In this document: in pieces, positions 4,073 through 38,820 of the stretch
How positions within the stretch are numbered: the first letter of the stretch is position 1
How the letters are laid out: every line of letters begins with the position of its first letter
NCBI RefSeq assembly: GCF_964199755.1
Contig: NC_133897.1
Coordinates: 137,088,125-137,152,124 of the forward strand
Direction of reading: 5' to 3'
DNA: 64,000 bases
Source: Larus michahellis
Lineage: Eukaryota; Chordata; Aves; Charadriiformes; Laridae
The notes under the pieces: model-generated
Databases searched by the model: none
Seen by the model: only the letters and a program-made list of their open reading frames with translations
Told to the model about the DNA's origin: nothing
Made by a program: the position numbers and the translations under genes

Positions 4073-4086
4073 AAAGTTAAGATTAG
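4073..4086. repeat. Left target-site duplication of U4/CR1 chimera
   Basis: The 14-bp word aaagttaagattag occurs here and again, without mismatch, at 4701-4714. The second copy directly follows the CR1 3' tail. A perfect 14-bp direct repeat flanking the block is the expected footprint of target-primed reverse transcription and shows that everything between entered as one unit. Confidence 0.85.
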
Positions 4087-4148
4087 TTTTCAATTAGCAA
4101 TAATCGCGCCTTGGATTAACCTCATTGGCTACGATACTGCCACTGCGC
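4087..4148 (-). pseudogene. U4 snRNA 5' fragment, antisense to the fused CR1
   Basis: Read on the minus strand this is the 5' domain of spliceosomal U4 snRNA. It begins gcgcagtggcagtatcgtag at 4148 and ends in attgaaaa at 4087. Against the vertebrate U4 sequence as I know it, it covers nucleotides about 7-68 (62 nt) with no gaps and two substitutions, one consistent with CpG decay. It includes the U4/U6 stem II region and the 5' stem-loop. It lacks the first six nucleotides and the whole 3' half (central domain, Sm site, 3' stem), so it cannot make a functional snRNA. No U4 promoter elements (PSE/DSE) are apparent beside it. It directly abuts a CR1 tail and shares its target-site duplication, so it is a retrotransposed fragment and not a decayed snRNA gene. 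The identification rests on recall of the U4 sequence. Confidence 0.88.
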
Positions 4149-4700
4149 TGCAACAGATCCAGAGAGGTGATTCTCCCCCTCTACTCTGCTCTGGTGAGAT
4201 GCCACCTGGAGTACTGCGTCCAGCTCTGGAGTCCTCAGCACAAGAAGGACATGGACCTGTTGAAGTGGGTTCAGAGGAGGGCCACGAAGATGATCAGAGG
4301 GCTGAAGCACCTCTCCTATGAAGACAGGCTGAGAGAGTTGGGATTGTTCAGCCTGGAGAAGAGAAGGCTCCAGGGAGACCTTATAGCAGCCTTCCAGTAC
4401 CTGAAGGAGGCCTACAGGAAAGCTGGGGAGGGGCTGTTTGCAAGGGCATGTAGCGATAGGACAAGGGGCAATGGTTTTAAACTAGAGCAAGGCAGGTTTA
4501 GATTAGACATTTGGAAGAAGTTCTTTACAATGAGGGTGGTGAGGCACTGGAACAGGTTGCCCAGAGAGGTGGTGGAGGCCAGGCTTGATAAGGCTCTGAG
4601 CAACCTGATCTAGTTAAAGATGTCCCTGCTTACTGCAGGGGGATTGGACTAGATGACCTTTAAAGGTCCCTTCCAACCCAACACATTCTATGATTCTATG
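4146..4700 (+). mobile_element. CR1 LINE, 5'-truncated 3' end (part of U4 chimera)
   Basis: This is the 3' end of a CR1 non-LTR retrotransposon in plus orientation. The reading frame from 4125 to 4613 carries the end of ORF2 downstream of the reverse transcriptase core, with typical words such as [23 protein letters not shown] and [11 protein letters not shown]. It is followed by the conserved 3' UTR block (ggattggactagatgacctt, then gtcccttccaaccca) and two copies of the terminal octamer attctatg. The 5' boundary is fused to the antisense U4 fragment; the junction lies in 4145-4152 and is blurred by shared gc/gctg bases. The element is dead because it lacks endonuclease, reverse transcriptase and promoter. 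CR1 is the main LINE of birds and reptiles and mobilises by target-primed reverse transcription. Confidence 0.93.
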
Positions 4701-4714
4701 AAAGTTAAGATTAG
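4701..4714. repeat. Right target-site duplication of U4/CR1 chimera
   Basis: This is the second perfect copy of aaagttaagattag, immediately after the CR1 octamer tail. Its partner is at 4073-4086, on the far side of the U4 fragment and not at the CR1 5' junction. Confidence 0.85.
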
Positions 4715-18358: not shown

Positions 18359-21098
18359 CACAGAATCGCAGAATCGCAGAATCACAGAAACTTCAGAGTT
18401 GGAAGGGACCTCTAGAGATCATCTAGTCCAACTCCCCTGCTAGAGCAGGATTGCACATTACTCAGGACTGCATCCAGGCGAGTCTTGAAAATCTCCAGAG
18501 AAGGGGACTCCACAACCTCCCTGGGCAGCCTGTTCCACTGCTCTGTCACCCTCGCTGTAAAGAAGTTTTTCCGTGTATTTGAACAGAACTTCCTATGTTT
18601 TAACTTGTGCCCATTGCCCCTTGTCCTGTCACTGGGAACCAATGAAAAGAGTCTGGCACCATCCTCCTTCAACCCACCCTTTAGATACTTGTATGCCATA
18701 ATAAGGTCTCCCCTCAGCCTTCTCTTCTCCAGGCTAAAGAGTCCCAGTTCTCTCAGCCTTTCCTCATAAGGGAGGTGCTCCAGTCCCTCAATCATCTTAG
18801 TTGCCCTTCGCTGGACCCGCTCCAGCAGTTCCCTGTCCCTCTTGAACTGGGGAGCCCAAAACTGGATGCAGTATTCCAGGTGTGGCCTCACCAGTGCAGA
18901 GTAGAGGGGGAGAATGACCTTCCTTGACCTGCTGGCCACACTCCCCTATGCAGCCCAGGATTCCATTGGCCTTTTTGGCAACAAGGGCACATTGTTGGCT
19001 CATGGATAATTTACTGTCTACCAGGACCCCCAGATCCTTCCAGAACTACTGGAAGGACTCAGAACTACTTCCCAGCAGGTCCACCCCTAACCTATACTGG
19101 TGATTAGCATTCTTCCTCCCCAGGTGGAGGACCTTGCACTTGCTTTTGTTGAACCTCATTAGGTTCTTCTCTGCCCAGCCCTCCAGCCTGTCCAGGTCAT
19201 GCTGGATGGCAGCACGGCCCTCCGGAGTGTCAGCCACCCCTTCCAGTTTGGTATCATCAGCGAACTTGCTGAGGATACACTCTGTCCCACCATCCAAGTC
19301 ATTAATGAATATACTGAACAAAATTGGACCGAGTATTGACCCCTGGGTACACCACTGGTTACAGGCCTCCAACTAGACTCTATGCCACTGATCACAACCC
19401 TCTGAGTTCTGTCACACAGCCAGTTCTTGATCCACCTCACTGTCACCTCATCTAGCCCATACTTCCTCAGCTTCCTAATGAAGATGTTATGGGAGACAGT
19501 GTCAAAAGCCTTGCTAAAGTCAAGGTAGATGACATCTACAGCTCTCCCCTCATCCAGCCAACCCGTTATAACATCATAGAAAGCTATCAGATCGGTCAAG
19601 CATGATTTACCCTTGGTAAATCCATGTTGACCACTTCCAATGACTTCCTGTTCCTCAACGTGTTTGGAGATGACATCCAGAATGAGTCACTCCATTACCT
19701 TCCCAGGGACAGAGGTGAGACTGACCGGTCTGTAGTTCCCTGGCTCCTCCTTCTTGCCTTTTTTAAAGATTGGAGTGATGGCAGCCTTCCTCCAGTCCTC
19801 AGGCACCTCCCCTGTTCCCCATGACCTTGCAAAGACAATGGAGAGTGGTCTAGCAATAACATCTGCCAGCTCTCTCAGCACTCGCGGGTGCATCCCGTTA
19901 GGGCCCATGGACTTATGAATGTCCAGATTGGCCAAGTGGTCTCTGACCCGGTCCTCCTCAACTGAAGGAAAATCTTCCTCTCTCCAGACCTTCCCCCTTG
20001 CCTCCAGGGTATGGGATTCGTGAGAGGCAGCTTAGCAGTGAAGACCAAAGAAAAGAAGGCATTCAATAGCTCTGCCTTCTCTGTGTCTTCCACCACTAGG
20101 GCACCCGTCTCATTCATCAGTGGACCTACATTTTCCCTAGTCTTCCTTTTTCTGTTGATATACTGATAGAAACTCTTCTTGTTGTCTTTAACTGCAGTGG
20201 CCAAGCTGAGTTCTGATTGAGCTTTGGCCCTTCTAATTTTCCCCCTACATAGCTTTGTTATATCTTGATAATCCTCATAAGTTGCCAATCCCTTTTTCCA
20301 GAGAATGTAAGCTTTCCTTTTTTTCCTGAGGTCCAGCCAAAGCTCTCTATTTAGCCAGGCTGGTCTTCTTCCCCGTCGGCTCGTTTTTCGAGACATGGGG
20401 ATGGCCTTCTCCTGTGCTTCTAAGAGCACCTGCTTGAAGTATGACCAGCCTTCCTGGGCACCTTTGCTCTTCAACACTGCCTCCCAAGGGACACTCTCGA
20501 CCATGCTCCTAAACAGGCTAAAGTCTGCCCTTCGGAAATCCAAGGTGGCAGTTCTGCTGGCTCCCCGCCTTGCCTTTCCAAGAATTGAAAATTCTACCAT
20601 TTCATGCTCACTGTGCCCAAGACGACCTCCAACCTTCACATCCCTCACAAGACCTTCTCTGTTAACAAACAGTAGGTCCAGTAGGGCACTTCCCCTAGTT
20701 GGTCCTTCACCAGCTGTGTTAGGAAGTTGTCTTCCACACACTCCAGGAACCTCCGGGACTGTTCCGTCTCTGCTGTGTTATATTTCCAGCAGATGTCTGG
20801 GAAGTTGAAGTCCCCCACAAGAACAAGGGCAAATGATTGTGAGACCTCTGCCAGCTGCTTATAGAATACTTCATCAGATTCTACATCCTGATTAGGGGGT
20901 CTATAACAAACTCCCATCACGATGTCTGCCTTGTTGGCCTTCCCCTTAATTCTTATCCATACACACTCAACACTGTTATTCACACTGTTAAGTTCCAGAC
21001 ATTCAAAACTGTCCCTAACATAGAGGGCCACCCCGCCACCTCTCCTTCCTTGCCTCTGCCTTCTGAAAAGTTGGTAGCCATCGATTACCGCACTCCAC
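18359..21098 (-). mobile_element. CR1 LINE, near-complete ORF2 with frameshifts
   Basis: This is the longest element in the window, about 2.7 kb on the minus strand. Its 3' tail is at 18359-18390 as degenerate cagaatcg/cagaatca octamers. Going leftwards on the minus strand, ORF2 begins inside the AP-type endonuclease (RRGGGVALYV; GDFN at 20815-20804; a SEHE histidine motif near 20610). It continues through the linker, then reverse transcriptase ([33 protein letters not shown], catalytic FADD at 19264-19253), and ends with the C-terminal domain ([27 protein letters not shown]). The frame changes near 20700, 19960, 19690, 19345 and 18950, so it is inactive. The endonuclease N-terminus, ORF1 and promoter are missing. 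CR1 ORF2 makes the nick and copies the RNA at the target. Confidence 0.95.
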
Positions 21099-37002: not shown

Positions 37003-38820
37003 TCAAGGATCACCTCCTCCAAGCTCAGGAGCTCCTAACGAAGAGAAAGTTAGGCAAAAATGCCAGTAGGCCTACAGGGATTACAAGGAGCAAGGACAGG
37101 TAGCCTGGGAGGAATACAGAGAAACTGCCTGAGCAGCCAGTGATCAGGTTGGGAAAGCTAAAGCCCAGGTAGACTTAAATCTGGACACAGACAACAATGG
37201 CAACAAGAAAAGCTTCCACAGGTATGTCAGTGATAAAAGGAAGACTAGGGAAAATGTGGGCCCTCTTCCGTAGGAAACGGGAGACCCGGTTACTCGGGAT
37301 ATGGAGAAGGCTGAGGTACTCAATGACTTTTTTGCCTGTCTTCACTGGCAAGGCCTTGGCTCTAGCCACACCGCCCAAGTCACAGAAGGCAAAGGCAGAC
37401 TCGGAGAATGAGGTACCACACACTGTAGGAGAAGATAAGGTTCAAGACCATCCGAGGAACCTGAAGGTGAACAAATCCATGGGACCCAATAGATGCATCC
37501 ATAGGCCCTGAGGGAACTGGTGGATGAAGTTGCTAAGCCACCATCCACCATATTTGAGAAGCCATGGCAGTCTGGTGAAGTTCCCACCAACTGGAAAAGG
37601 AAAAACACAACCCCCATTTTTAAAAAGGGAAAAAAGGAAGACCTGGGGAACAGGCCAGTCAGTCTCACCTCTGTGCCCAGCAAGATCATGGAGCAGATCC
37701 TCCCGGAAACTATACTAAGGTACATGGAAAATAAGGAGGTGATCAGTGACAGCCAATGTGGCTTCACTAAAGGCAAATCACATCTGAAAAATTTGATGGC
37801 CTTCTACAACAGCGTTACAGCGTTGGTAGATAAGGGGAGAGCAACTGACATCATCTACCTGGGCTCGTGCAAAGCATTTGACACTGTCCCACATGACATC
37901 CTTGTCTCTAAATTGGAGAGACATGGATTTGGCAGATGGACCACTCAGTGGCTGGATGACCACACTCAAAGAGTTGTGCTCAACAGCTCGATGTCAAAGT
38001 GGTGAGCAGTGACGAGTGGTATTTCTAAGGGGTCAGTACTGGGACTGGTGCTGTTTAACAACTTTGTTGGTGACATGGACAGTGGGATTGAGTGCACCCT
38101 CAGCAAATTTGCTGACGATACCAAGCTGTGGGGTGCGATTGATATGCTGGAGGGAAGGATGCCATCCAAAGGGACCTAGACAGGCTTGAGAGGTGGGCCT
38201 GTGTGAACCTCATGAAGTTTAACTAGGCCAACTGCAAGGTCCTGCACCCAGGTCACACCAATCCCAAGCACAAATACAGGCTGGGCAGAGAATGGCTTGA
38301 GAGCAGCGCTGAGGAGAAGCTCAACATGAGCAGGCAGTGTGCACTTGCAGTCCAGAAAGCCAACCATATCCTGGGCTGCATTAAAAGTGTGGCCAGCAGG
38401 TCAAGGGAGGTGATTCTGTCCCTCTGCTCTCATGAGACCCCACCTGGAGTACTGTGTCCAGCTCCGGAGTCCCTAACATAAGGACATGGACCTGTTGGAG
38501 CAGGTCCAGAGGAGGGCCACGAAGATGATCAGAAGGCTGGAGCACCTATGCTATGATGACAGGCTGGGAGAGTTGGGGTTGTTCAGCCTGGAGAAGAGAA
38601 GGCTTCAGGGAGACCTTACAGCCGCCTTCCAGTACTGAAAGGGGGCCTATAGGAGAGATGGGGAGGGACTCTTTATCAGGGAGCGGAGCAATAGGATGAG
38701 GGGTAACTGTTTTAAACTGAAAGAGGGGAAATTTAGATTTGATATTAGGAAGAAATTCTTCACTGTCAGGTTGGTGAGCCACTGGAACAGGTTGGCCAGG
38801 GAAGCTGTAGCAGATGAAGA
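37003..38820 (+). mobile_element. CR1 LINE, internal fragment missing both ends
   Basis: A roughly 1.8-kb CR1 in plus orientation begins in the linker between endonuclease and reverse transcriptase (aaaaatgccagtaggcctac; aaggacaggtagcctgggag). It runs through reverse transcriptase ([38 protein letters not shown]; catalytic FADD at 38108-38119) to the C-terminal domain (ttcagcctggagaagagaag, near 38581). There are several frameshifts and stops, including a YLGSCKAFD where YLDFxKAFD is expected, so a catalytic aspartate region is damaged. Unlike all other copies it stops before the 3' UTR: similarity ends at about 38820 and there are no octamers. A tandem duplication of gaagatcctt marks that edge, suggesting a later deletion or rearrangement. 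Confidence 0.93.

Follow-up and report, generated by a model that had tools for sequence, protein, structure and literature searches.

An antisense U4 snRNA piece joined to a 5'-truncated CR1 inside one 14-bp duplication, probably formed by twin priming

Inverted, 3'-truncated chimeras of U1, U2, U5 and U6 with L1 were explained by twin priming in 2015 (PMC4476161), and U4 was listed in 2026 among the RNAs known to form L1 chimeras (PMC13174262). In the text of the latter, which concerns mammalian L1 only and gives no orientation for U4, the 5S, tRNA and U5 pieces in L1 chimeras are mostly antisense, a bias read there as a possible sign of twin priming. In the template-switch U6-L1 type described in both papers, an RNA piece sits on a 5'-truncated LINE and both parts have the same orientation. 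For a bird, it was proposed that the PittSINE family arose when a tRNA was joined by template switching to a SINE mobilised by CR1 (PMC5729268). A single 5' inversion is reported in chicken DT40 cells for human L1 and two zebrafish LINEs, which are not bird CR1 (PMC4245944).

A chimera with CR1 as the LINE is present at 4073-4714 of the window, that is, the whole 64-kb stretch of DNA that was analysed. It consists of an antisense U4 piece, the dinucleotide TG and a 5'-truncated sense CR1, all inside one perfect 14-bp direct repeat:

4073-4086, no strand: left target-site duplication AAAGTTAAGATTAG (repeat search); its last two bases, AG (4085-4086), double as U4 nt 69-70
4087-4148, minus strand: antisense copy of U4 snRNA nt 7-68 (Rfam RF00015, 71 bits; 62/64 identical to the presumed U4 gene L001, AG overlap included)
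4149-4150, no strand: TG, fitting neither U4 nor CR1 (comparison with L001 and with the CR1 copy L008)
4151-4700, plus strand: 5'-truncated sense CR1 3' end (BLAST to CR1 copies in the window and to L008)
4685-4700, plus strand: two ATTCTATG octamers forming the CR1 tail and abutting the right duplication (sequence; the avian CR1 octamer is ATTCTRTG, PMC8665684)
4701-4714, no strand: right target-site duplication AAAGTTAAGATTAG (repeat search)

These parts, their order and orientations, and the breakpoints between them are direct observations, and the chimera is real. Judged from the ATTCTATG octamers, the genome is bird-like. An earlier reading of the sequence alone (the sequence-only reading) had described an antisense U4 fragment running without a gap into a 5'-truncated sense CR1 with its octamer tail, enclosed by a perfect 14-bp repeat at 4073-4086 and 4701-4714. 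The repeat search bore out the repeat, and the arrangement stands except for the gapless joint, where TG intervenes.

The insert resembles the chimeras of PMC4476161 in that an antisense, 3'-truncated snRNA lies between one duplication and a 5'-truncated LINE. It differs from them in involving U4 and a CR1 element, whose tail is made of octamers, and from the material of PMC13174262 in that the latter is mammalian L1. For the L1 chimeras of PMC4476161, priming is placed at an internal site of the snRNA that is complementary to the target; the corresponding match in the window insert is AG, 2 nt. Both PittSINE and the insert would involve a CR1 reverse transcriptase joining a second RNA in a bird; in PittSINE, however, the two parts read as a single SINE with its head and its tail, which gave rise to a family of repeats (PMC5729268). 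Template switching in the usual sense, as in U6-L1, was rejected for the window insert because its parts lie in opposite orientation. The sequence-only reading knew of no described inverted U4-CR1 chimera. No inverted snRNA-CR1 chimera is described among the best 10-20 matches listed per search of the open-licence literature; the kind of chimera and the mechanism are, however, already known, since PMC4476161 models inverted snRNA-L1 chimeras by twin priming and PMC13174262 lists U4-L1. As far as those matches show, the novelty lies in CR1 as the LINE in an inverted snRNA chimera, by a mechanism known from L1.

The U4 piece was identified by an Rfam scan of the 64-kb window, in which RF00015 (U4) scored 71 bits on the minus strand against a cut-off of 46, and no other family exceeded its cut-off. 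The Rfam match reaches 4031, but this extension was rejected as homology, being a whole-model fit, and the local alignment ends at 4085. A family search of the genome (1.405 Gb, 616 contigs) yielded the presumed U4 gene L001 (130.5 bits) and one further U4 match, L003, under the cut-off. Local alignment of the insert to L001 gave 62 identical positions out of 64 over nt 7-70, with a score of 59 compared with a maximum of 13.5 in 1,000 shuffles, so that the claimed 62-nt match to U4 nt ~7-68 survives both alignment to a U4 gene and comparison with shuffled sequence. The other match, L003, comprises at 1501-1852 a diverged U4 copy (41 bits) and, after it in the same orientation, sequence that resembles 7SL/SRP RNA but is likewise diverged (22 bits). 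Neither score reaches the cut-off, and the locus gave no CR1 match.

U4 lies antisense to CR1; U4 is truncated at its 3' end, and CR1 is truncated at its 5' end with the 3' tail kept. At the left joint, the final AG of the target is also nt 69-70 of U4, and the U4 copy therefore begins at nt 68 or 70. The boundary had been placed at the target's AG beside U4, which holds, with the correction that these two bases belong to both sequences. The overlap is only these 2 nt, and matches so short are common by chance. U4 nt 65-71, a range that spans the inner U4 breakpoint, are predicted to be unpaired by single-strand folding. At its other end the copy stops at nt 7 in the alignment to L001, six bases short of the RNA 5' end as had been noted, and is followed by TG and by CR1 from 4151.

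BLAST matches to other CR1 copies begin at 4151, and CR1 extends to 4700. The CR1 part is identical to L008 in 497 of 574 alignment columns and is without 24 nt internally relative to that copy. At the inner joint L008 reads GGCCAACAG, with GGCC preceding AACAG. By these comparisons the TG at 4149-4150 fits neither part, since the next U4 base would be A and L008 has GGCC at this place; it may be filler added where the two parts meet, or the CR1 template may have differed from L008 here.

The two copies of the 14-bp repeat border U4 and CR1 on their outer sides, and no direct repeat of at least 12 was found at the inner joint in the repeat search. Fourteen is the longest run common to both flanks, whereas runs did not exceed 12 in 19,765 random window pairs lying 300-1,200 bp apart. 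The U4 match and the repeat are both real. U4 differs from the gene at 2/64 sites and CR1 at 8/256 sites where three other CR1 copies agree (20/417 and 18/530 by two other counts); these divergences, although based on few sites, are similar and allow U4 and CR1 to be equally old. From this layout, the chimera very probably arose in a single event.

A second copy of the chimera was sought in the genome with a 121-base DNA query covering the left and inner joints. Very common words were skipped in this search and the assembly is possibly incomplete; no second copy was found, the three matches falling on the window itself, on the U4 gene and on a single copy of CR1. The joint thus occurs at a single locus, with no second chimera to serve as source as far as this search reaches, and a repeat family or SINE with a U4 head was rejected on the same grounds. 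The result also bears on the idea that a CR1 RNA already carrying antisense U4 at its 5' end, transcribed from a locus with an adjoining inverted U4, was retrotransposed as a whole. Such a fusion transcript would yield one duplication with any orientation of the parts, and 5' transductions are known for L1 (PMC13174262); yet no other locus with the joint was detected by the query, and the AG overlap at the target would have to be a coincidence. This origin is considered very improbable.

The duplications of CR1-clade elements are reported to be about as long as those of L2-clade elements, which peak at 3-5 bp (PMC4245944), or CR1 elements are said not to show duplications (PMC2169234). A 14-bp duplication is thus unusual for CR1, and falls within the 10-20 bp reported for L1 5' inversions in human cells (PMC4245944). 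Among 17 ordinary CR1 copies (20 rows after dropping the window insert and the two U5-CR1 loci L030 and L031), no long duplication was recognised by the flank-run test, the 5' ends of old copies being poorly fixed; common flank runs were of 4-8 nt, not above those of mismatched flank pairs (up to 11 in 380 pairs).

Ordinary copies also provided the background density of CR1. About 18 copies were counted in 284 kb sampled (21 rows minus three T-rich or doubtful ones), corresponding to roughly one 5' end per 16 kb, a lower bound as four reference copies were used. None of 18 CR1 copies checked had an inverted CR1 segment upstream within the up to 1,200 bp searched, the search beginning at the first BLAST start, which lies inside the element for several copies and reduces the true upstream sequence covered. 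Two reverse transcriptase matches (PF00078) were obtained in a Pfam search of ten open frames, at 19159-19686 (minus strand) and 37505-38005 (plus strand) of the window, upstream of CR1 copies.

Other snRNA-CR1 joins and their orientation, which the sequence-only reading had named as a check, were looked for in the same genome. Genome matches numbered 3 (family search) and 12 (DNA search) for U5, 14 for U2, 5 for U6 and 27 for U1. Gene-like rows or clusters were set aside (5/12 for U5, 4/14 for U2, 10/27 for U1, plus the U4 gene), leaving 41 places presumed not to be genes: 2 for U4, 7 for U5, 10 for U2, 5 for U6 and 17 for U1. These lists are incomplete, since none of the five U6 matches, all of them treated as non-gene, looked like the plain U6 gene that a genome must have. 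Twenty-seven of the 41 places were read: 2 for U4, 7 for U5, 9 for U2 (one of two alike on C38 was omitted), 5 for U6 and 4 for U1. In the join test, the window insert as well as L030, L031 and L014_5647 were kept out of the reference records, the low-complexity filter was on and matches of more than 99.5% identity were excluded. The strand assigned was that with more records, the fewer opposite-strand matches coming from flanking CR1 copies in the reference records; at L050, opposite-strand matches had equal E-values.

In 11 of the 27 places read, the snRNA lies next to the 5' end of a CR1, eight times in sense and three times in antisense orientation; such joins recur in this genome. The antisense joins are the U4 insert of the window, U5 at L040 (nt 42 to 4) and U2 at L046 (nt 42 to 3), the latter two having the same layout as the window insert. 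The sense joins are with U5 (L030, L031, L039), U2 (L050, L051) and U6 (L053, where the U6 piece is nt 1-106, L054 and L055). The parts are spaced between a 4-bp overlap and a 6-bp gap, except at L050 (22 bp) and at L051, where a 63-bp overlap of the snRNA and CR1 alignments leaves the exact joint uncertain. The sequence beyond the insert is alike in L054 and L055, which probably represent one event; the shared sequence would be a duplicated locus or a dispersed larger unit.

By this test, a CR1 join is absent from 15 of the 27 places, among them L047, where U2 is followed by a weak CR1-like tail that failed the join test and was not counted. A CR1 match at L061 was rejected as a T-rich run. 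L043 was left out of the count for the position of its U5 piece: at 1501-2061, U5 nt 6-43 directly follow an internal CR1 piece on its downstream side. The two are on the same strand and there is no CR1 tail, an arrangement that neither simple route explains.

The 15 places show that snRNA retrocopies without CR1 exist, as would be needed if the window locus had received two independent insertions, CR1 and then a U4 retrocopy or the reverse. However, both parts of the insert lie in one perfect duplication with no repeat of at least 12 at the inner joint, and 11 of the 27 snRNA places are joined to a CR1 5' end while such ends occur only about once per 16 kb, a rate of joining that is not due to chance. 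Two separate insertions are thus regarded as extremely unlikely.

The sense joins, in which, as in the U6-L1 type of PMC4476161 and PMC13174262, an RNA piece sits on a 5'-truncated LINE, are consistent with a reverse transcriptase that left the CR1 RNA and continued on the snRNA; the inverted joins are consistent with priming from the second cut. For the window insert, one retrotransposition event by the CR1 machinery, with twin priming on U4 RNA as second template, is the best explanation and a very likely one. We infer every enzymatic step, and the RNA nature of the template, from the sequence. The CR1 endonuclease would nick the lower strand, and CR1 RNA would be reverse-transcribed from its 3' tail leftwards, the copy breaking off after ~550 bp. 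The upper strand would be cut 14 bp away, and its free 3' end (...GATTAG) would pair by AG with CU of U4 RNA (nt 69-70). Reverse transcriptase would then extend the upper strand towards the U4 5' end and halt at nt 7. Joining of the two cDNAs, perhaps with TG as a 2-nt filler, would leave antisense U4 followed by sense CR1 in one duplication. Such a course of events, already proposed in the sequence-only reading and supported here, would account for the single 14-bp duplication, the inversion of U4, its internal 3' breakpoint at a 2-nt match to the target and its near-complete 5' end. Two matching bases, AG, do not suffice as proof of priming.

In all three inverted cases the snRNA copy stops near the RNA 5' end, at nt 7 of U4, nt 4 of U5 (L040) and nt 3 of U2 (L046). 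This bears on the alternative that, while the CR1 cDNA was being end-joined to the upper strand, a repair polymerase copied a stretch of U4 from DNA, either from a gene or from some other copy. A DNA filler could have either orientation, and the 2-nt overlap and 2-nt filler would suit end-joining, but nothing would make filler copied from a gene end six bases or less from the 5' end of the mature RNA, as it does in all three inverted cases. Moreover, the pieces derive from abundant RNAs, whereas the 1.4 Gb yielded a single gene-like match to U4. The ends at 2-6 nt from the RNA 5' end argue for reverse transcription of RNA, and DNA filler is judged improbable.

Twin priming on the snRNA would also suit L040, where the U5 piece breaks at nt 42; the antisense U5 breakpoints given in PMC4476161 are at 36, 43, 46 and 48. 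U5 nt 38-44, which cover the inner breakpoint of L040, are predicted to be unpaired when folded as a single strand in the same way as U4. Against a common scheme, L040 has only a ~5-nt repeat (GAGGT, by eye) and L046 none that is clear, so that a long duplication is not common to the inverted cases; the common-run counter gave 5 nt for L040 and 6 nt for L046, at other offsets. The sense joins L030 and L031 share flank runs of 7 and 5 nt, no more than expected by chance.

The inverted snRNA chimeras in the cited papers involve mammalian L1 (and SVA), and CR1 belongs to another LINE clade. The CR1 cases suggest that LINE integration is generally prone to priming on bystander RNA from the second cut. 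In the bird CR1 setting twin priming may be rare, since none of the 18 CR1 copies checked has an inverted CR1 segment upstream and a single inversion was reported in DT40 cells. Set against these 0/18 inverted CR1 segments, the three inverted snRNA-CR1 joins would indicate that snRNA is preferred over CR1 RNA in the second priming. It can be proposed, quite tentatively and with doubt outweighing confidence, that bird CR1 uses both the template-switch and the twin-priming routes, and that upper-strand priming favours abundant snRNA over CR1 RNA at a few fixed unpaired snRNA sites. If duplication length decides second-end priming, inverted CR1 chimeras should have longer duplications than ordinary CR1; the 14 bp of the window insert agree with this expectation, and L040 and L046 do not.

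Some features of individual loci are worth recording. At L050, a CR1-like piece (2-176) lies inverted ~90 bp upstream of the sense U2-CR1 join, and may be separate from it. Matching to U2 stops at nt 42-44 in L044 (294-333), L045 (294-337) and L046 (303-342), of which only L046 is joined to CR1, in inverted orientation. In all three sense U5 joins, L030 (1504-1569), L031 (1495-1563) and L039 (1501-1567), the sequence matches the compared U5 gene up to nt 69, and L041, a U5 piece without CR1, also stops near this position. U5 nt 69 may be a recurrent breakpoint or the end of a U5 fragment, and variants differing past nt 69 could blur its position by a few bases.
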